Below are positions 28,301-62,989 of a DNA stretch of 64,000 nucleotides, one piece after another. Position 1 is the first letter of the stretch. Each line of letters opens with the position of its first letter. Source of the DNA: Paralichthys olivaceus (lineage: Eukaryota > Chordata > Actinopteri > Pleuronectiformes > Paralichthyidae); the NCBI RefSeq assembly GCF_024713975.1, contig NC_091099.1, forward strand, positions 10,704,001 to 10,768,000, written 5' to 3'. The position numbers were made by a program, and so were the translations under genes. The notes beneath the pieces are model-generated. The model was given only the letters and a program-made list of their open reading frames with translations, was not told the DNA's origin and ran no database searches.

Positions 28301-28603
28301 CTCAGCAGGTAGAGTATTTTTTGCTCTTGTTTGCAGCAGAAACAAAAAGGTATTCATTGCATCTTTTTTCTATGAATACAATTCAGCAAAGTCAATAATT
28401 CATACAAACATTAAAATATATATATTTTTACCTACAAAACAGCAGTTTATGGTAATGTATTAATTCAAAGAGCATTTTCTAAATGAAAAAATAAATATAT
28501 ATTGGGGATAGAACAAAAATGAATGTTTTGTAAGTGAGATATAGATTATGATCTTGAAGTAGAGATCTGGAGATGGCTACCTCAGCCCCAGGATAGAGAC
28601 AAG

Positions 28604-31600
28604 CTAAGCTCCTGGATTTGTCTCCCAATCTGTTGTATCTGAAACAAACAAACATAAAACAGAATTACACTTCATACAGTAAGTAGAATAATGTTTAAAG
28701 ATATAGTGCTTACTGCATACATCTTCATATTTTATATCTTACTGTAATTAGACAATATAATCCTATCTTAAATCATAAATCTTTTCATTTCCAATACAAA
28801 CCACAATTGTTATAATATGTGTTTATTATTCCTAGATTGTACCTGTCATTTTCGTTCCCTCCTTGGTCTCAGCTGGGACACCAATCCCATACTCATTTTC
28901 CCCAGTGATTCTGAAGAAGTAGATTCCTCCCTCCTCTAGGTCAGACACCTTATAGGACAGTCGACAGCATTTGTCAGTGAGTCTTGTCCACCCTTGTCTA
29001 CTGATGTCCCGCATGTCCACATAGTAGTTCTTGACAGGAGCTCCTCCCTCATTCTCAGGGATGTCCCAGGTAACAGTGGCAGAGGTTTTGGTCACATCCT
29101 TGACTATTATATGAGTTGGTGGACCAGGGGAATCTAAAACCCTCACACTCAGGGCTAAAGAGGCAGATCCAGCCGCATTTTGCAGTTTGACTATGTACTT
29201 GCCAGAATCGTCACGTGTTGCTTGTTCCACTGTGACAGAGGTGAGGCCATTGGTGGTGTGTATGAGTCCCCTGACTCTGAGATCGACATCTGCTTTGTCC
29301 CATAACACACTGGGAACAGGTTTGCCTGTGAAAGGCACAGTCAAAGTGAAGGAGCTGCCATCTCTAACAAGTAGGGTCTTCCTCATCTCGTTGCTAATGT
29401 CAAACCTTGGCTCTTCCTCTCTCTCAACAGCTATTTGAGGCTCTGTTTCAGGACTTGGCTCACTGATGCCAATCTTATTCATGGATCTGACAATAAAAAT
29501 ATATTCTGTCCCTGATGTGAGTCCAGTTATTGTAAACTCTGTTTTATCTGTGTTAGGAACACCAACAGTCCAGTCTTCTTCTGTTGATTTTCTGAACTCA
29601 ACTTTATACCCTGTAACTGCTGCTCCACCATCAAACAAAGGCTTGTTCCATGACAGACTGATCGAGGACCTGGATGAATCAACTATGATGGGCTTTGCTG
29701 GAGGTGAAGGTAGAAACTTTGGATCCTCTGCCACGGTTAGTGGGCACGGGACACTGGGTTCACTTATCCCTCCAGCATTCTCAGCAAAGACTCTGAATTC
29801 ATACTCACATCCCTCATGCAGACCAGAGGCTTTGACTCGTAAGTCATAGACTGGTTTTTTGTTGACTCTTACCCAGCGAACACCCTGCTTCTCTCTCCTC
29901 TCAATGATGTAACCACTGATGCGGCTACCACCATCAGAGTTTGGTCTCTTCCAGCAGATGGTCATAGCCTCAATAGTTGCACTTGTAACCTCAACATCCA
30001 TTGGGGCAGATGGGACGTTAAAGGGATCCACAGCCTTGATGGGCTCACTTTCCAAAGTCTCACCCTCCCCATATTTATTCACTGCCCTCACTCGAAAAAG
30101 GTATTCATTTCCTTTGAGCAGCTTGGTTATCTTACAAGTTGTTGCCATCATGTCACCGTACACAAGAGTCCAGGCAACACGGCTGGTTTCACACTTCTCA
30201 ACAATGTAGTACATGATCTCAGCACCACCATTCTCATGAGGGGGTTCCCATGACAGGGTGCATTTCTCTGCTGAAAGTCCAGAAACCTCCAGAGGTCCAG
30301 CAGGTGGGCCTGGCCTGTCCAGGACCTTACAAGTGATAGCTTTAGATGTGGTACCACCTGTATTCTGTAGGGTCAAAGTATATTGTCCAGAGTCTTTCCT
30401 AACACTTTCTCGGATGAGAAGAGAGGTATGCGTCTTTGTTGCAGTCATCTCAATCCTTCCCTTCGTGCTAATATTTCTACCATTCTTCAACCAAAACACT
30501 GTAGGATTTGGGCGACCAGCGATTTCAGCATCTATTCTTAGGAGGTCTCCTGCTTTGACAATCACCACCTGTCTCAGTTTGTCATCCAAGATAATTTTGG
30601 GTGGTTCTACATCATGCTGTACAGTAACAGGTCCTGTGGTTTCTGAGGGTGCACTGAAGAGTTCAGCTGAATTCTTTGCAATCACACGGAAATCATATTG
30701 TTCACCCTCTGTGAGGCCAGTCACTTCCAAAGAGGTTTCCAGTAAATTAGTGAAATTGCACTTTAGCCAACAACTCTCTGGCAGCTCTTTACGCTCAACA
30801 ATGTAAGCAGTTATTTTCGCTCCACCGTCGTATTCTGGTTTATCCCATGAGAGGGAAACTGAGCTGTTGCTTATGTTGGTGACTGTGAGGTTCTGTGGGG
30901 GATCGCACTGGTCTCTTGCTGCAACAGGATCAGATGTCTTACTGCAGGGTCCAATACCTGCCATATTCTCAGCACAGACCCGAAACTCGTATATCAGGCC
31001 CTCCTCAACACTCGTTACCTTGAACTGTTTCTCACTCACCAGGCTTCTGTTTAACTTTGTCCACAGAATACTGCTTTGATCTTTGCATTCAATATGATAC
31101 CCCATGATAGGGCTGCCGCCATCACTATCTGGATTGTTCCAAGCAATGACCATTACAGACTTTGAGGCCTGCACAACATGGAGGTCAGTTGGTGGACCAG
31201 GGGGCTTGAAGGGATACTGGGCAACAACAGGTTCAGATTCAATAAACATGCTCTTGCCATAGCGATTCTCTGCAGCAACACAAAACTGATATTCAGTACC
31301 TTGTGTCAGACGGGCGATTTTGATTGATGTTCTTGCAACTGTAGCTGAAACAGTCTGCCATATTGTGCTGCCTGTATCTCTCTTCTTAACAACATAATTC
31401 GTGATTTCACATCCACCAGTATAACGTGGGGGCTGCCATGAAAAAGACACAAAGTCAGCACTCACCTCATCTACACTAAGGTCACTTGGTGGTCCAGGTC
31501 TTTCAAAGACATTAACCACAATTTCAGCAGACGTGTTTCCAACAGAATTGGACAGAGTCACTTCATACACACCCACATCTATTTTGGAGGCATCTTTGAT

Positions 31601-34600
31601 AATGATCTGAGATGATGTGTCAGATGTGTGTACATTTACCCTGCTCGTCTCTTTCAATGCATTGCCATCTTTTTTCCAGGATGCTGTTGGTGCTGGAACA
31701 CCCTTGAATGGAACATCAATCTTAAAATCATTGCCTGCCTTCACACTGAAAGTGTTGGACAGCAAATTAATAATGGGCCCAGCACTAGTATCCTTAACGG
31801 TAACAGGCGCCAACAAATACTTTGGTTCACTTTTTCCCTTTTCATTTAAAGCACTCACTCTAAAGAAGTATTCCTTTCCTTTTGTCAGCCCATTAATTGT
31901 CACTTCCAGTGCTTTACTCTCTGAACATATTGTCCATGTGTCATCTCCCTTTGCTTGCATTTCTACAGTATAACATGTAATTTTGCTTCCTCCATCATGG
32001 TCAGGTTTCTCCCAAGAGAGTGTCACATTATTGCAAGTGACATCACTGATAGTGATTTTACCTGGAGTCAGAGGAGCCTCAGATGTTTTAACAGCCTCAG
32101 TGGTTGCTACTGGTTGTCCAGTTCCAAATTCGTTCACAGCCAACACACGGAAATAATAAAAGAAACCTTCCTGGAGATTGTCGATCTTGTATGAGTTCCT
32201 GACACAATTGCTACAAACGCTTGTGAAGGCCTTTCTAGCTTCCTCACGCTTCTCTATGATGTAGTGTGAAATCTTTGATCCTCCATCAATGAGAGGTGCC
32301 TCCCAGGAGATGGACACAGAGTCTCTCTTTACATCTTTCACCTCTAGGTTTGTAGGGGCACTGGGAGAGTCCAAAACTCTAACGTTGATGAAAGCTGATT
32401 TAGAGCCACTGCAGTTTACAGCGGTCAACACATACTTTCCTGAGTCATTTCTGTTGACATTCTCAATCAATAGCACTGTGAAGGAGCTTGTAACCTCAAT
32501 TTGAGCACGCTCACTGAGAGATCCATCTTCCTTCGACCATTTAACCTCAGGCTCTGGCCTCCCTTTGATGGTGACATGGAGGCGTAAGGTGGAACAGGCT
32601 CGGATGTTCACAATCTTCCTCAAGGTGGTGTCCAGCTCAATGTCAGGTGCCTCCAGTTTTTCAGCTGCTTTCACTGACCCAGGTAGATCCACAGGCTCTC
32701 CAATTCCAGCAGCATTAATCGCTCGTATACGAAAATTATACTCTGCATTTTCTCTCAGTCTCTTCACTGTGTAGTTTGTTTCATCTACACCTGTGAATGT
32801 AATCCACTCATCCTCTCCTGTTTCTTTAATTTCAACTATAAATCCACTGATGACTGCACCACCATCATAGATGGGCTTTGACCAAGTCAGAGATACAGTA
32901 TTGCTGGAATAGTCTGTCACTTTAGGGTTGGTAGGGGGACCAGGTGGGTAAGTAGCTTCACAGACTTTTATATACTCACTTGGCTCACTGGGTGCACCCA
33001 CACCAGCTGCATTTTCTGCCGATACTCTGAATTGATAGTAATGTCCCTCAGTGAGCCCTGTGCAACGGAAACGGAAGTCGTTTAGCCTTCTCTTGTTGCA
33101 TTTAGTCCACCTGACACCTTCTTTGTCACATTTCTCCAAGATGTAGCCATCAATCTCTGAGCCTCCATCGCTCTCTGGCCTTTCCCATGTTAGCGCTACA
33201 GAGTCACCAGTCACTGCGCTCACTGTAGGAGTAGATGGTGCACTAGGGGTTTTAAATGGGTTTTGTGCAATGAAGGGGTCTGATTCCAAAAATTCACCAA
33301 CACCAAATTTATTCACTGCAGCAATTCTGAATATGTATTCTTTTCCAGGCACCAGTTTTGTTACTTTGTAACTGACAGCTTCAACATGAGCATCAACCCC
33401 TGTCCATGTAACACGACTGGTCTCCCTCTTTTCAATGATGTAGTGGGAAACACAGGCACCGCCATCATTTAAAGGGAGGTTCCAGTGAAGATTACACTTA
33501 TCTGCACTGATAACTTTCACTCTCAAAGATCCATCAGGAGGACCAGGTCTGTCCAGGACCTTCACATTAATTGGCAGTGACGTAGTTCCACCAATGTTAA
33601 TAAGGCTCAGTAAAAACTGGCCCCCATCCCCTCGTGTACAGTCCCTGACAGTAAGAGTTGTGTGAGTGAGGGTGTTTTTGACCTCCATTCTCGGTGTAAC
33701 TTTGTCAATTTCTTTTCTGTCTTTGAGCCACAGTACCTCAGGAAGGGGCTTCCCAAAGTAATCAGCCTCAATAATGAACGTCTCACCCGCCTGAATGACG
33801 GTAGTACTCTTGAACTTAGGATCAATATATGCTGTGGGTGCTTCAATAACATCCTGAGCGATGATGGTTACAACTTCTGAAGGTGGGCTCCAAACACCGG
33901 CTCCATTCTTGGCAGTTACTCTGAACTCATAACTTTGGCCTCCTGTCAGACCTGTAACTGTGAACTGATTCTCATTAACATTAGTGAAGTTTGCCTTCAT
34001 CCATCTGCCATCTGGGAGGTCCTTCTTTTCAACAACATAGCCTGTGATGGTGCTTCCACCATCGTACTTGGGTTTTTCCCACTGAAGTGTGACGTTCTCT
34101 CTCGTAATGACAACAGCGTCAGGCTTTCCAGGTGGATCACAGGGGTCTCTCGCCACATAACATTCAGATATCTTGCTCGATGAGCTGAGTCCAGCAATGT
34201 TCTCAGCAAAGACCCTGAATTCATACTCAATGCCCTCTTCCAGGCCGCTTGTTTTGAAGCGAGCATCGGTTATAACAAACTTGTTCAGCTTGGTCCATAA
34301 AATGCTGTTCTTCTCTTTGCGTTCAAGGTGATAGCCGATGATGGGGCTGCCTCCATCTTTGTTTGGGGGCTGCCATTCAACAACCATGCTGTACTTTGTC
34401 ACGGTGGACACAAAGGGAGTCCCAGGAGCATTGGGCACACTAAATGGATATTGTGCAATTACAATAGGAGAGGTGATTGCCGTACTCTTTCCGTACCTAT
34501 TTTCTGCAAACACTCTAAATTGGTATTCACTTCCTGTCTTCAGCTTGGTGACTTTGATTGTAGTTCTTACTGTGGTCGCTGACACGGTCTGCCACTCTGT

Positions 34601-35657
34601 ACTTGTAGTTCCACGTTTCTCCACTATGTAGTTGTCTAGCTGACATCCTCCTGTGTATTCAGGTGGCTCCCATGAGATGGTAGCGTAGTCAGAACTGACT
34701 TCATCAATCCTCACAGGACCTCTGGGCGGATCCGGCTTTTCAAGAACAACCACACTGATTTCTCCTGTGAATTCTCCAGCGCTGTTGCTCGCTGTGACTA
34801 AGTATTGACCAGAGTGCTCCCTGGCAGCATGTCTGATATGAAGAACTGCTAATGAGGGTGTAGCTGAAACCTGGAGCCTCGATGTCTCTTTAACTGCAAC
34901 ACCATTTCTTTTCCATTCAATCTTGGGTGCTGGTTGACCAAACACTGGGATTTCTACTTTCATATCTTCACCATCCTTGACAGTGAATGTGCTAAAAGTT
35001 ATCTGGAGTGATGGCTTAATAGCATTTTCCTTCTCTGTCACAGGACCAGATGGGACCTGAGGGTTGGGTTCTCTGTTCCTTTCAGACGTGTCAGACGAAC
35101 CTGGTATGAAGATCAGATAAGCGGTAAATAATTGTTTTTAATAATATATATGAGTATTGTTAAGTCAAATTAATCTATATAAATGTTTAAATTATTTACA
35201 TTGTGACAATCTGTTATTTGAATCTATACCAAAATGTGAATATATAGTTTTATTTGTTATTAACATAAAATAATTGTTTATACTGAAAAATCAAAAACTG
35301 TATAAGTAGAAATAACAAGGGACAAAAAATGTATTCTAGACACTTGGTAACAATTAGGCAACACAATAATCCAACATTTTAGCATGTTTTGATTTCAACT
35401 CAAAGCAAAGCATTGATATATACAAGGCTACAAAGTGAGAGGAGGATTGTGTGACATACCTTGGACAATGAGTGAGGAGGGTGACTGGGAAGCTCCTGCT
35501 GCGTGCTCTGCATTAGTGTCTGGTGTCATATTTATATTTAGAGTGTGAGCTTTATCCTCGCTTTTCTTTCCCGTCTACAAAAAAGAAAGGAACAAAGCTA
35601 TCAGAAAGAAGAAGAAAAAAGGGAAAGAGATGCATGCATACATAAACAGGGCGATAT

Positions 35658-35694
<37 letters not shown>

Positions 35695-36083
35695 ATTGTT
35701 TCTATTTGGTTGTTTGTAGTTTATGACCACGTTATAAAAATTTGCTCTACATATTTCATTTTACTGACATTTTGACAGATCTGACATTGATGTTTTAGAC
35801 AGACGATGTGGGCTGTGTTACTCTGGTGAGTGTGATGTGTTGTAACAGAAACTTTTGATGGTGTTAAAAATAACTACAGGCATGACGGAGTAGGCGGCCA
35901 GCTGCTCAGATAAAACTACAACTTTCAAAGCTCTAATAAGTTTCAAACTACTAAGAAACATTGAAAAATCACCAAAGAAAACATCATTCAGAGGGGCCCT
36001 CGGCTCTTTCTGTACTATTCCAACAAGCTATTTCCTACAAGCAACACAACTGTACCACTTACTTGATTGTTGTTTGATTCCAT
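28604..36083 (-). CDS. Stand-alone titin A-band-like protein (mini-titin), complete
   Basis: Four coding exons join with matching phases: 36083-36063 (MESNNNQ), 35574-35460, 35100-28843 (6,258 nt uninterrupted) and 28638-28604 (ends NPGA, stop TAG). The predicted protein has about 2,142 residues. A hydrophilic leader of about 75 residues shows no known domain. Then come 21 domains: Ig-F-F-F-Ig-F-F-F-Ig-F-F-Ig-F-F-F-Ig-F-F-F-Ig-F (6 Ig, 15 FN3). Ig signatures include DSGKY/DSGQY; FN3 signatures include YEFRVFAEN and DGGSPI. Domains 1-2 recur as 12-13, and 9-10 as 20-21, about 1,079 residues apart, which is the 11-domain super-repeat of titin's C-zone. No kinase, PEVK, Z-disc or M-line part is present. 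The start has a strong Kozak context (A at -3, G at +4). By family analogy it should bind thick-filament myosin and MyBP-C; that role is inferred. It could instead be annotated simply as 'titin-like'. Confidence 0.9.
35101..35459 (-). other. Titin-like gene intron 2
   Basis: Phase-1 intron with donor CCAAG|GTATGT and acceptor cttcataccag|GTTCG. AT-rich; nothing else seen. Confidence 0.8.
35662..35694. repeat. Poly-C homopolymer of 33 bases (poly-G in the titin-like transcript)
   Basis: An uninterrupted run of 33 C on the plus strand inside intron 1 of the titin-like gene, starting about 88 bases from the exon-2 acceptor. Homopolymer length may be affected by sequencing or assembly error. Confidence 0.9.
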
Positions 36084-43328: not shown

Positions 43329-46300
43329 CTGTGTCCTAATGCCCTTAAAATATGCTGTTTCCATGCTCACCAAAATAAGAAACAATTTCTCAAAAGCAAG
43401 GCTATGTGTGTGTATGTATATGTCTTCATACAGGTCCATGGGTGTGGTTGTGACGGTGTCATGGTCAGACTTATCATGGAGCCATCCCAGACGATAAAAG
43501 TGCATCCTGACCCATTTTGAACCTTTTGTCGTTGCTGATACGTTCGACCTGTTGTGATGCTCGTGCATTCACCACAGTGGATGCACTCTGTCTAGGTCTT
43601 CAATTCAAACCTCACTATAGTGTTTCACAGGACAGTGGGGAGCTATTGTGTTCCCTCACTTACTTTGTTATGCTGTAAATGACACTGGCTTGTTCATGCT
43701 GGTGCTGGTTATAGAAGATATTGCAAGCTTAGATCAGCCACAGAGATTTGTACCTATAACTGTATACATATCTTGATTTAGTTCATTATTGTCACAAAAT
43801 ATCAGCAGCTAATCAGCGGGAAAGTTAATATGTGTCTCTGCTGTAGTGTCCTTGAATCATCTTCATGATTTCCTCTTCTTATGTGATGTGCCCTCACGTC
43901 TCTGCTGTGGTGACATGTTGTCAAAGCAAACTGTCTGTGTCTCCACTTGTAATATAATAAACATGCACTGTTACTTATGTACTGTTATTATATTTCTAAG
44001 ATTATAGGATTTATAAACCTGATTGTCGGATTTAATTGAGATTTATTCACATGTTTTTTTTCTCTTATACAGACCAAAATATTCCAAAGAGGTACACTCA
44101 GTCTATAATGAATTATTAACAGACAATTGTAATTATAAGTATTATTGGTCAAAATCTGAATTTAATTTAATTTGATCATTTATTCCCCTTTGACCTGATC
44201 AGATGTAGGGAGAGGAGGGGGACGTGGACCAGGATGTGAAGTAGAAGAAAGGAACTAGCAATCCATACACACATAAAACAGAACCAGATTAACATCTCGG
44301 TCAAATCCTTGTTTTAGGAGGGCATTCAAGTACTCTTGACCCCCCACAAGGCGTGATGACGGCAATGAAGCTCCACAGACTCAATCAGACTGATTTTGAC
44401 TTGCAGCCAAACACTGAAACATTTCAAGATCTTTATCACTTATCTTATCCTCCTCTTCATCTTCTCCCATCTTCGACCCAGGTTTCCAGGATGTCCACGT
44501 CATGATCTTTGTCGGATTTGGCTTCTTGATGACATTTCTCAAGAAGTACAGTTTTGGCGCCGTGGGTTTCAACTTCCTCATCGCTGCCTTCGGCCTTCAG
44601 TGGGCCCTGCTCATGCAAGGCTGGTTCCACTCTCTGGACTACACTGATGGAAAGATCAAAATCGGAGTAGAAAAGTAAGTTTTATTCTCGGTCAGTTCAG
44701 AGATTCCATTCTTTTATTCCACCTGCATTGTTTCCATTGGTGAGGTGGAGAAACCAGTTTGACTGACATGATCCCAACGGGACTGTATGGACGTAGTGTT
44801 TGTGATCTCGGTTGGGTGGAGGGTAAACAGAAACTCAAGGTGATGAGAAGTGACGATATTGTTGAAGGGAGGCAAAGTCACTGTGTGTCAACAGAAAAGT
44901 GTTTCTCAGTTTCTCTGAGTAAAAAGTGAAAGAGATAACGTGATAACTGAATCAGGTTCCTCAGAATAACACAACTGATCTTCAGTATTTTCTTATTTTA
45001 TATTCGTCCAGTGCAGATTACAGATGATCTCATTCTGTCCCCTCCTCAGTCTGATCAATGCCGACTTCTGTGTGGCTGGCTGCTTGATTGCGTATGGAGC
45101 GGTGCTGGGCAAAGTCAGTCCAGTGCAGCTGATGGTTATGACCCTGTTTGGCGTCACATTGTTTGCTGTGGAGGAATATATCATCCTGAATCTCATTCAT
45201 GTAAGTTGAAACCATCACTGGATGTTATTAGGAGGAGGTGATGTTTTCTCCCTCATGTCTGTTTGTTGGTTTATTTGTTTAGAAATAAGATTTTTCAAAA
45301 GCCACTGGATGGAAAAATCACAAAACTTGGAGGAAGGATGCATTAAGGGTCAGGAAAGGCGCATTTCTATTTTGGTGTGAATGATTCTATTAAAGGGGCT
45401 GATTTTTATGTGTTTTTTAAATAAACAAATACAAATCTGGATGAAGTGAATTAAGATGTGGTTTCATAAGGGAATGTTTGGTCTTGGTGGAGGTATGAGC
45501 TCCACTGAGTGACATTCTTTCAAAATTAGAGAATACCTCCCTGTGTTTATGGAAGAGTTGCCTTCAAGTTCTATTCCCAAATCCTTCGTTTTGTTTGTTA
45601 ATGTTTTAGAATCTATGTCAACTTGCAGCTGCTCAACATCTTTTTCTAAAATAAATAAATACATCTTCACCAGGAATTAATTGAACAACTGTTGCAACAA
45701 CTAATGCAGATATTTCCTCTCTGGTAGGCCAGAGATGCTGGAGGCTCCATGGTGATCCACACATTCGGAGGTTATTATGGTCTGTCCATCTCGTGGATGC
45801 TCTATCGGCCAAACCTGGAACAGAGTAGTCGTCTGCAGGGCTCCGTCTACCACTCAGATGTCTTTGCTATGATTGGTGATTACAGCTTTTCACCTTTTAT
45901 TCTCCTTCTGTTGTTGTGGTGCTGACTCCCTTCTCTCTGCACAGGCACCCTCTTCCTGTGGATGTTCTGGCCCAGCTTTAACTCCGCCATCACGGACCAT
46001 GGGGACGGGCAGCACAGAGCGGTCATCAACACCTACCTGGCTCTGGCCTCGACCGTGCTCACGACTGTGGCCATCTCCAGCGTCTTTCAGAAGCATGGAA
46101 AACTGGACATGGTAAAGACGAGCACGTGTGAACAACCTGGTTATGATAACTAGGAGTATGGGTGTTTGTTAAGTAGGTAATACAGGTTCTGTTTGCAAAG
46201 AGCACCTTGTTAAATACTCAGAAATGACATGTATGTCTTTGGCACCGTCTGAACAAACTTAAACTTCTCTTGAAAATATATTCTATTTTTTTTCTTGACT

Positions 46301-49039
46301 GATTTCTCAGGTTCACATCCAGAACTCTACTCTTGCTGGAGGTGTTGCAGTGGGAACAGCAGCAGAGTTCATGCTGATGCCCTACGGATCACTGATCGTA
46401 GGATTCTGCTGCGGTATCCTCTCCACCCTGGGATACATCTTCCTCACGGTGTGGCATCCGTCTTCATCCTTTGATTGCTGCTTTTGCTTCTCTCGCGAGC
46501 CCGTCAGCATGTTCTGAAACCTGAGCAAAACTAACCTGTTACGATTTTTTTTAGCAAATTCTAAATGATTTATCTTTCTCAGCCAATCATGGAAAAGTAC
46601 CTAAAGATCCAGGACACATGTGGCATCCATAACCTCCACGCCATGCCAGGAGTCATAGGTGGAATTGTGGGAGCCATTACTGCGGCAGCGGCGTCAGAGT
46701 CAGTTTATGGCGCTGAAGGGTGAGTGGTCTTCACTTACAAATAGGAAACTAGCAGTCACAGTGGTTTTGATTGTTTAAGTAGAAATATTTGTATTCTCGT
46801 GGCCAAATATATATAAATATATGTAATGTCACTGTCATAGAACAACAATGTGATTTGCCTCTTCTCTCTATTAAAGGCTTATTAACACCTTCGACTTTGA
46901 GGGAGCTTTTAAAGACACACCACCCACTCGACAGGGTGGTCTCCAAGCCGCAGGCCTCTGTGTGGCCATCTGCTTCGGAATAGGCGGAGGCATCATCGTC
47001 GGTCAGGAATAACCACTGAAACTTGAGTTTAACTGCATGACTGAAAACATGCAATGTCTACACGTTAATGATGTGTTAATAATATGACGCCACTGTGTGT
47101 GAACAGGAGGTCTGTGTGAACAGCGTTGACAGGCTCTGTGTGTTGTACTCTTCTTACAGGTTGTATCTTGAGACTACCGATCTGGGGAGATGTTGCAGAT
47201 GACAATTGTTTTGATGATGAGCCCTACTGGGAGGTGAGGGATGCATCTACACGATCATTAAAACGTTTCTGTAAAAAATTCCATATCAAATCACATCTCT
47301 TTCTGTCATTCATCCCACAGTAAATGAGCATGAGGGACAAAAACAACGAATATTTTCATATCCACGTTGAATCTGAGATATATGTAGTCTCGACTCTGCT
47401 TCGCTGGACTGGATAAATTCAAAAAATAGTTTTCACATGTTTCTCATTTTGAGTTTTTAATGTGATGCATCCCAGCAGGACTTGGTCCACACTGGCTCCT
47501 CATAATGAAGAGTTACTGAAATACTTGTGCTCAGCTCAGATCACAGCAGATAAAATAAAAAGCCTCCAATCCGAAGGTTTGAATCAGAGACTCTGATTGG
47601 TCGGAACCAGCTCAGTTAAAGTTCAGTTGAAATGCAGTTTGCTTAATGGTTGTAGAAACGCATCCTTTTGGAGCCACAATGACTCTGATTGGTCAGCACC
47701 AGATTGTTTGCTGCTTCTCAGTTCATCGTTTTACCGAACAATTTTTTAAATATACCAACAATATGGTACTTAGATCAAAATACTGTATAATAAATAAGGG
47801 CCAGGTGCAGGCATGAAACATCAATATAATAAGACAAAAGAAAGAAAGAAATGCATCAATAATAAAATTAATCAATAATAAAATGAATGTTAAAAGTAGG
47901 GATTGTTTTTAAAATCATATTCTTATATATTTTAGTGCAAGTCTGTTTTTCTGCTGTGATCTGACCTGAGCAAACATTTGAAAAGAATTATTCTAAAGTA
48001 AGCAGAATTTCAGCAGTATATATTTAACAATAGTCTCATATTCTTCATGAAAACCATCTTGTTTTACTGTTTGTGTGTGTACCTCTCCCCGAAGTTTTCA
48101 TCACATCCATTTCTGATGATGTGTCATTCTACCGCCTCTATCGACAAAGAAACTGCTCTTAATCTTCCATTTGCTGACATTAGTGCCCAGGAATCACACA
48201 TTTTCTTGTTGACTGATTATGCGGTGATCGTTTCGTCTTGAATCCCATCACAGCTCCCTGATGAGGAGGAGATCATCCCGCCCATCCTGCAGTACAACAA
48301 CCACACGCACAACAAAGATATGTAAGTGCTCAGTTTCTCTGACGACAGCATCCCACTCATGGATTCATGCTGGTCTCATCCAAAAACATGCGATGCAGGC
48401 AGTGGCACGTGTTGCATTCGGTGTCCTCTTGGTGGCAGCACATCACAGTTTTCAGAGACAACGTGAGACTTCGTTGTGATTCCTGCCCTTTGTTGGCAGG
48501 ACCTGGTCATGGTGTTGAATACAGTATGAACACACAGTGAGGATGTGGCTGCACACACACGGCACCTCTGACACACACACACACACTCGGGCCTGCTGGT
48601 GTCCCCGTCACTGAGCGTGGGCTGGATCACGGAAAGCTGACACAGACCCTGAGCTCTGTGTTTCCCCCGAGCTCTTTGTTGATAGGGGTTTCTCACAGCA
48701 CAGTTCTGCACGTGCAGCTCTTCAAAGTGACCTTGAAGTCGTGCTATAGTCAGAAAAAAACATGGATTTCATAAGATGTTATATCTTCATTTACAGTGTT
48801 AAATTGAGTCCAATCTAGAGTGATGTCATATTGAGGTGGGAGCACAGCAACATGTATAAATCAAATATAACAGCTCTTTAAATTGAGGCTGTATAAGAAA
48901 ATAAACCTTGACGCCTAACTCTGCCTATTTAAGGAATATTTTAATTCATAATTTTTAACATGTGGAGTTTCATTGTTTCTCACACTTTTTATTTCATTTT
49001 TCCAGAGCGGAGTCTAATTTCACTGTGGAGCAGAACTGA
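42506..49039 (+). CDS. rhcg: Rh type C glycoprotein, ammonia channel
   Basis: Eleven coding exons with consistent phases: 42506-42728, 44482-44674, 45050-45200, 45728-45875, 45945-46111, 46311-46448, 46583-46719, 46877-47001, 47160-47233, 48254-48321 and 49006-49039, giving 485 residues. Family blocks are [70 protein letters not shown] and [15 protein letters not shown]. The pore twin histidines are His200 (VIHTFGG) and His359 (NLHAMPG), equivalent to His185/His344 of human RhCG. An N-glycosylation site, Asn60-Ile-Ser, sits in the first extracellular loop. Twelve membrane spans are expected from the family. In fish, Rhcg proteins export NH3 from gill ionocytes and other epithelia. Which teleost paralogue this is (Rhcg1 or Rhcg2) I cannot settle. 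The exon-6 donor (ACG|GTGTGG) is weak. Confidence 0.95.
42729..44481 (+). other. rhcg intron 1
   Basis: Largest rhcg intron, phase 1, AT-rich, carrying the compound CT/TA microsatellite. No other element recognised. Confidence 0.75.
43244..43328. repeat. Compound (CT)n(TA)n microsatellite
   Basis: CT run of about 60 bases with one G interruption, passing directly into a TA run of about 26 bases; in rhcg intron 1. Confidence 0.95.
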
Positions 49040-55160: not shown

Positions 55161-55662
55161 AATCACCCTAAAGATCAGCCTGTTGGAATGTGCCGCTGAA
55201 TTCCTGGAGAGATGGACCCAAAGACCTCAGAGAACCGTAAGAGACGACAGCGACTCGATATAAAGACTTTAAATACAAGAGGTTAGATTTCATTTCCTCT
55301 TTCTCATCCTGCAGGAGCCTGGATTTAAAATAAAATAAGATAAAATGTACATTTTTATCAGTGGTTTATATATATCATCAGAATTGATTTCATTAAAAAC
55401 AATCAGCTTCCTGTCGCATCATTTCCAAGCAGCCATGCAACATTTTACATTTCACCTTTGACTGCTGATGCACTCCGTCTGCAGCCAATCACAGCCGAGC
55501 ATCCAGAATGTCATGACAGATTTGTGTGAGAAGGAAACGGCTGCAGCCTCACGTGGCTTTTTGAAAAATGCCAACCCACACAGTGTGCATGCTCTGATCC
55601 CACGTCTGACGTGAGCATGCGCACATGAGCTTAGTGTGTCTCAACGTGGGCTCATCCCTCTG

Positions 55663-55767
<105 letters not shown>

Positions 55768-56062
55768 CTCTTTTCTACCTTTTGTCTTTGGATCAATGGA
55801 CAGAAATGCATTTCTTACTGGATTTTCTGGAGATTCCACATTATTATTGTGTAAATAAATCAGCTCATTTTCTCTGCAAGACATTAGGTTAACATTAGGT
55901 TCACAAACCACTTCCATAGTGTTAGATTTTATTTTGATCGACAGCACAACCTGAAGAGTGATGTGCAGCCATGTAGTCGAGCAGTGGATTTATCTCACAT
56001 TATCACATTGAGTGATGTCTCCACATACAGAGCAGACATGGACAGTAAAGTGCAAACATGAG

Positions 56063-62430: not shown

Positions 62431-62796
62431 AATAGTCTAAAAAAAAGTCGCATGGAGCTAAATTCAAGATCTTTATATCTTCCAGCATTATCCAATACTA
62501 ATCATATAAACAGCTAGTTTTTTGCTGCTCCTGAGAAGTTCCGACTTTGTTTGTTTTGCCATTTAATTGAGACTAAAGACAATGTTTATTTAATATTTTA
62601 GTGCTCCCATAAAGTGATTTTCAGGCTTAACTTTTGAGTTAAATGTTCTTTAGTTCTTCTGACTTCTGTTTGAAAAGACTTGAGACTTGATTTGTAGAAG
62701 AAGAGGAAACTGGACAAAGCCTTTTGTTTGCAAAGCTTCCTAAGAAGTTATGTTCTTTTCTGTTTCACCACACTAAAGCAATGTTGTCTTATAATA

Positions 62797-62797
<1 letters not shown>

Positions 62798-62863
<66 letters not shown>
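62798..62863. repeat. (CA)n microsatellite, about 33 units
   Basis: Pure alternating CA run. Confidence 0.97.
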
Positions 62864-62865
<2 letters not shown>

Positions 62866-62989
62866 GGGCATTCAGATGTGTGGGATGAGGCTGAAAATGA
62901 GACAGAAGTGGTGAGTGCACTGAGGAGGAGGTGTGGACTGTGTAACTCCGAAGGTTGGATGAATTACAACGGCGTCTGATGAACATAAA

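Follow-up and report, generated by a model that had tools for sequence, protein, structure and literature searches.

The invertebrate mini-titins twitchin and projectin are short Ig/FN3 proteins of the thick filament that carry a kinase, and myosin-binding protein C (MyBP-C) and myomesin are Ig/FN3 proteins of the A-band; the full titin genes of teleosts stand as a tandem pair on the HOXD chromosome. According to the accessible parts of the sources, full titin comprises about 300 domains and its C-zone follows an 11-domain pattern, I-FF-I-FFF-I-FFF (I, Ig; F, FN3; PMC5648799); each 11-domain repeat spans 43 nm, the linkers set the shape of the chain, and the stripes of MyBP-C, a protein of 10-11 domains (PMC10665226), lie at the interfaces of the repeats (PMC10665226; PMC5648799). 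Teleosts have two titin genes (PMC12198301; PMC12862963, both as accessible in part); the locus discussed here is absent from the accessible parts of these two accounts, and the term "titin-like" was not found in the main text of PMC12198301. The titin or titin-like products in the accessible parts of PMC6473766, PMC7830382, PMC12470603 and PMC9420404 could not be tied to this gene, and among the top-ranked papers of the open-access literature, as far as their accessible text goes, no description of a stand-alone C-zone titin gene was found.

The gene lies in a 64-kb stretch of DNA of Paralichthys olivaceus, analysed as a whole and hereafter called the window. Its closest relative is the C-zone of the titin A-band (teleost ttna/ttnb, mammalian TTN exon 327), with which it shares the domain order, the linkers and the 3' end of an exon. 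In the product Pfam recognizes 15 fn3 and 6 I-set stretches, and our own parse reads I-FFF-I-FFF-I-FF-I-FFF-I-FFF-I-F, i.e., the 11-domain C-zone pattern in an array of two super-repeats less one domain, out of register (positions 4-11, 1-11, 1-2). The best match among solved structures is the titin chain 8q6t_I, colinear with residues 316-1390 of the query (1,549 bits, against 248 bits for the best MyBP-C chain and 107 bits for myomesin); a protein of the MyBP-C type is excluded by the 21 domains standing in titin's own order. The C-zone pattern, together with the descent of the sequence, places the protein within the titin family as a derived paralogue. Unlike twitchin and projectin, it has no kinase domain detectable with Pfam or in the search of the window, and NCBIfam gave matches below the cut-off only. 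From titin it differs by its 21 domains (58 in the giant-exon strings P0134, P0137, P0140, and P0143), by the lack of any other titin region, by leader and stop exons of its own, and by other neighbours in the window. Its identity is 67-70% to the giant exons of group Y, about 61% to exons grouping with Xenopus, and 50-57% to group X, X and Y being the two teleost titin groups of the trees discussed below. The absence of titin's kinase, PEVK, Z-disc and M-line regions, asserted in the first-pass annotation, was borne out by Pfam for the kinase and by empty searches of the flanks, PEVK having been sought via 234 query proteins only.

Four minus-strand exons (36083-28604, Table 1) join in phase into an uninterrupted reading frame of 2,142 residues, and the three introns have GT/AG at every exon border. 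Around the ATG, position -3 is A and position +4 is G, and exon 1 ends at the donor GTAAGT; exon 2 lies between the acceptor TTTGTAG and the donor GTATGT, exon 3 between CAG and ACAG/GTACAA (slash, exon border), while exon 4 follows the acceptor TTTCAG and closes with the stop codon TAG. The initial reading of this locus, an intact 6.26-kb exon in phase with two leader exons, a strong-Kozak ATG and a short stop exon, was confirmed at all borders, and exon joining and Pfam gave the predicted product, 6 Ig and 15 FN3 domains in about 2,142 residues. Leaders that start like that of exon 1 are present in orthologues, and with tblastn outside exon 3 the best 40 of 106 rows all fell on exon 2 (top E 1.3e-17). 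The frame containing exon 3 runs from stop to stop over 2,101 codons (35137-28832, minus strand); from single-base composition alone, the chance of 2,085 stop-free codons is about 10^-54. The protein is already in the databases, as nr lists an annotated prediction, "PREDICTED: titin-like [Paralichthys olivaceus]" (P0001), to which the joined product is identical in 2,136 of 2,142 residues, six differing. A processed pseudogene would have neither introns nor constraint; here we find three GT/AG introns and a constrained sequence. That the stand-alone mini-titin is a real gene we regard as virtually certain. As a side observation, a run of 33 C (plus strand, window positions 35662-35694) lies within intron 1 and is possibly a weak spot of assembly or sequencing.

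Table 1. Features of the mini-titin gene and its neighbours (window coordinates; those of Ig domain 1 were calculated from exon borders and domain-parse residues).
Feature	Position	Strand	Description
Exon 1	36083-36063	-	21 nt, start codon and MESNNNQ, phase 0
Exon 2	35574-35460	-	115 nt, leader (TGKKSEDKAHTLNINMTPD...VQG), phase 1 donor
Exon 3	35100-28843	-	6,258 nt, 21-domain Ig/FN3 array, phase 1-1
Exon 4	28638-28604	-	35 nt, DTTDWETNPGA and stop; first base of the D codon supplied by exon 3
Ig domain 1	34742-34993	-	residues 82-165, super-repeat position 4, first titin-derived domain
FN3 domain 21	28874-29128	-	residues 2037-2121
FN3 domain 21 with giant-exon end	28843-29128	-	ETKEGTKMT-G/GT (slash, exon border); from the parse and exon borders
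BEN-domain exon	22.9-23.2 kb	-	Pfam E 1.1e-4, slightly below its cut-off; consistent with banp
379-aa frame	37.9-39.0 kb	+	weak DcpS_C match, no solved relative
Rh type C-like ammonium transporter exons	44418-46514	+	neighbour of the mini-titin gene

As to the origin of exon 3, the matches to the far end of a Labeo titin include 42 proteins (P0134-P0175): 41 measure 5,618-5,938 aa, and the one from Chaenocephalus, a different model, has 6,153 aa. Human TTN exon 327, with 17,106 nt, has the size of these 41 giant-exon ORFs (PMC9845391; PMC12198301, accessible parts). The domain strings count 58 domains in the four proteins named above and 59 in P0157, and the mini-titin query matches the last third of the 41 ORFs (the last 21 domains where strings are given). 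In each of the 42 proteins, the best alignment stops between query residues 2131 and 2138, and 39 of them carry the exon end K-I-T/S-G, whose counterpart in the window is K-M-T-G, within their last 32 residues; the motif was not among the residues inspected in the remaining three (P0141, P0168, Chaenocephalus model). Beyond this point the spliced titins (Labeo, Megalops) continue with TE-KPSPP and the mini-titin with D-TTDWETNPGA and a stop. On the 5' side, the homology begins in the linker preceding a position-4 Ig, and it is these two limits, the linker and the end of the giant exon, that define the copied piece and its register. Judged by these alignments, exon 3 corresponds to the final 21 domains of a giant exon that has about 58, with the same splice point. 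The segmental copy of part of that exon, suggested at first pass, is thereby strongly supported, and we are highly confident that exon 3 derives from titin's giant C-zone exon. Since mouse titin exons 305-325 encode C1-C2 (PMC5648799, accessible part), the giant exon would begin at about C3 and end early in C8, with the copy comprising about C6-C8. The copy appears to have departed from the titin locus, as the window holds no other titin sequence. Another assignment, to the last two super-repeats beside the P-zone with an end at A154 (the departure of titin-beta in the mouse filament), was discarded, because the array ends with the giant exon instead.

The protein search gave 1,229 matches, and our counts of orthologues rest on the best 120 of these, of which 18 ids were set aside as salmonid/pike short titins or pieces of titin and 102 were classed as orthologues. 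Among the matches listed, 86 of the 102 orthologues have the identical 21-domain string, and the remaining 16 lack domains and look like partial or domain-skipping models. The hosts named in this list include flatfishes, stickleback, medaka, seahorse, toadfish, Centroberyx and Atlantic cod, and by this taxonomic spread the gene dates back to the acanthomorph ancestor or earlier. Measured by HMM borders from the first Ig to the last FN3 in the 86 same-order rows among the matches listed, the array spans exactly 2,043 residues in 60 rows, 2,040-2,045 in 78, and a shorter 2,026-2,031 in 8 (SD 4.5 over the 86); across the equivalent stretch, 16 group Y titins have 2,042-2,045 residues by alignment. 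The leader has 57-82 residues in 56 of the listed rows (median 78.5, SD 6.1), with a conserved core N-I-N..T. When the window is added to the 86 listed orthologues, the joined stop exon is visible in 50 of 87 rows and both the leader and the joined stop exon in 44, and listed orthologue proteins with start and stop exons of their own measure about 2,100-2,148 aa. Three candidates were rejected as orthologues: a 3,267-aa Alosa protein, whose domains match several query domains ambiguously, and a 3,267-aa Engraulis protein with two near-equal alignments, both of which we take as pieces of titin, and Megalops P0098, which runs on beyond the exon end as titin does. The independence of the gene, likewise claimed at first, is upheld by the same ends in orthologues, by exon-joined contigs (8 of 32, see below) and by the absence, at E 0.01 with 234 query proteins, of a further titin-like or kinase match in the window; the 6.3-kb frame with its 21 domains is kept in 86 of the 102 listed rows.

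The mini-titins evolve faster than the parent-type exons and are yet constrained, still resembling a thick-filament array. Mean pairwise identity is 0.81 among 82 mini-titins, 0.89 among 13 group Y exons and 0.86 among 16 group X exons, the species sets being different, and 443 of 2,072 columns are invariant across the 82 mini-titins. In 32 titins, 596 positions are invariant; the mini-titin consensus has the titin residue at 557 of them, and at 461 so do at least 95% of the mini-titins, against a mini-titin/Y consensus agreement of 0.68 outside these positions. Four [N/Y/D]PF linkers recur in 81, 80, 85, and 71 of 87 rows (86 listed orthologues and the window), and domains 1 and 16 have drifted (mini-titin/Y consensus agreement 0.58 and 0.57). 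The per-domain conservation of mini-titins correlates with that of group Y (Spearman 0.56, p 0.0085) but shows no correlation with that of group X (0.06, p 0.81); since X and Y themselves are uncorrelated (-0.26, p 0.25), the former correlation may reflect a shared starting sequence as much as function. Selection, which the first reading had taken from the long open frame, finds support at the protein level in the domain order of 86 of the 102 listed rows and in the largely kept titin-invariant positions, and we consider that the mini-titin is very probably under purifying selection.

As for transcription, 32 of the 102 listed orthologues stem from a source labelled "lgn", which we understand as assembled sequencing runs to which no gene prediction was applied. 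Of these contigs, 24 begin inside the intron or exon 3, or cross the donor into intron codons, and therefore resemble unspliced DNA. The other eight (P0013, P0024, P0034, P0038, P0063, P0088, P0089, P0099; 6.5-7.4 kb) have exon-joined ends, both ends being joined in the first five, and we read them as probable spliced mRNA, a reading that depends on our understanding of the label. Muscle promoter motifs were ruled out as an argument: within 1.5 kb upstream of the start codon there is no MEF2, CArG or TATA consensus, and three E-boxes stand against 0.87 expected.

The explanation that we favour as a whole, and think rather probable, is that of a stand-alone, protein-coding, titin-derived gene, made in muscle and docking on the thick filament. 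By sequence, exon 3 is the copy of a segment of one teleost titin group that begins in the linker before a position-4 Ig and runs to the 3' border of the giant exon, splice donor included; the gene has two leader exons and a short stop exon of its own and has been kept in acanthomorph fishes. In the relaxed state, titin chains lie among the myosin tails, with no direct contact between titin and MyBP-C (PMC10665186, accessible part). The contour of the 21 domains is estimated at about 82 nm (21 x 43/11 nm), nearly two 43-nm repeats, and by analogy with titin we lean towards a protein that would be made in striated muscle and dock over this length on the myosin tails of the C-zone by titin-type contacts. 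Such a protein would serve as a local splint or compete for titin's track, but would not be an end-to-end ruler. No passive tension is to be expected from a protein without Z-disc, spring, kinase and M-band parts; a role in setting length is unlikely for a piece without anchors, and any effect on filament length seems to us improbable. The real and conserved gene might instead be used outside the sarcomere, e.g., as a cytoskeletal or developmental scaffold, its titin features being kept for the stability of the fold. The new leader with its N-I-N..T core, the new stop exon, the faster evolution relative to parent-type exons and the upstream region devoid of MEF2, CArG and TATA consensus would suit such a use; nevertheless, the array span and linker motifs are held as in titin and the per-domain constraint correlates with that of group Y titin, and we judge a non-sarcomeric function unlikely, though it is the strongest competitor of docking on the thick filament.

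Whether the copy arose later or is a remnant of genome duplication can be judged from the trees, built with 42 rows (LG+G4) and 27 rows (LG+C20) and both rooted on the long hagfish branch. In both, the teleost titins split into group X (Labeo, Acnodon, and, in the 42-row tree, Dissostichus) and group Y (Megalops, P0107, exons P0143, P0150, and P0153, and Chaenocephalus with further exons). The comparison of the mini-titin domains with titins, proposed at first pass, placed the mini-titins inside Y, nested at forks of 100/100 and 100/99 and adjoining exons that include that of the icefish Chaenocephalus. They stand after Megalops, P0107, P0143, P0150, and P0153, and hence after the elopomorph branch, which we take Megalops to represent. 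A remnant of a lost titin copy of the 3R whole-genome duplication, in place of a later copy, is by this position quite improbable, even if, according to the accessible part of PMC12198301, the titin copy from 3R was lost and only two tandem genes are found. As a separate observation, the group X giant exons P0157 and Dissostichus P0176 show IFFFF twice where group Y shows IFFF, and the query alignment takes about 2,120-2,140 columns in exons of this kind against about 2,080 in Y; the extra F is either an insertion or a parsing split.

Salmonids, Esox and Umbra possess short titins (P0002, P0004, P0109, P0110, P0111, P0113, P0114), which resemble the mini-titin in being predicted, in having C-zone-type domains only and in standing near group Y, and differ from it in their content (query domains 5-21 plus FIFFF) and in their ends. 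Domains 12-21 are repeated in P0002 and P0004 (3,192 and 3,202 aa), and the N-terminus of the salmonid proteins keeps the apparent start of another FN3 domain, which would fit a formerly longer segment. These short titins join the mini-titins at 80/66 in the 42-row tree and form a three-way fork with them and the Y exons in the 27-row tree. A topology uniting mini-titins with Y without the short titins was not rejected (p-AU 0.297), whereas one uniting the short titins with Y without mini-titins was (p 1.2e-6); shared derived residues number 7 for mini-titin and salmonid, 9 for mini-titin and Y, and 2 for salmonid and Y (740 usable columns). One origin or two are possible by these sequence data. 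The 100/100 union of both in a first tree of 24 rows, without group Y giant exons, is superseded by the two trees that include them.

That the locus is what is left of a titin duplicate, transcribed but of little function, is very improbable: all other titin regions are indeed missing and 16 of the 102 listed rows lack some domains, though these models are seemingly partial or domain-skipping, but the 6.3-kb frame with 21 domains persists in 86 of the 102 listed rows, from cod to flounder, and 443 of 2,072 columns are invariant in 82 mini-titins.

With 234 query proteins, some of which carry kinases, no titin-like or kinase match was found in the 64-kb window outside 28600-35600 at E 0.01. At a laxer E, with the first 133 proteins as queries, the best other site was 51.8-51.9 kb (E 0.09), which we take as chance. 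The neighbouring BEN-domain exon agrees with the banp named at first pass, and the 379-aa frame was there called gdpgp1. Rfam (gathering threshold) and ARAGORN (bacterial code) found nothing in the window, and long CA/TG repeats at 55610-55990 and 62750-62980 give spurious His/Thr or Cys/Val frames. A fragment of a full titin gene cut by the window edge, to which an exon of titin in only 64 kb could point, can practically be dismissed in view of the start and stop exons of the listed orthologues of about 2,100-2,148 aa, the non-titin neighbours on both sides (BEN-domain exon, Rh C-type transporter exons) and the lack of any further titin-like hit (E 0.01) across the window.

A third titin-type gene thus looks real, with a length kept near-constant in dozens of fishes, and it means that an independent gene can arise from titin's giant exon. 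In mice, two super-repeats were deleted in a key test of the ruler idea (PMC5648799, accessible part); here a natural free piece of almost two super-repeats offers a small clonable protein for testing C-zone repeats alone. We suggest only tentatively that acanthomorphs possess a third, separately controlled titin strand, which would add to titin or displace it on the myosin filament. If so, fibre types may tune the order of myosin heads or of MyBP-C, or local filament stability, with the giant gene left untouched.
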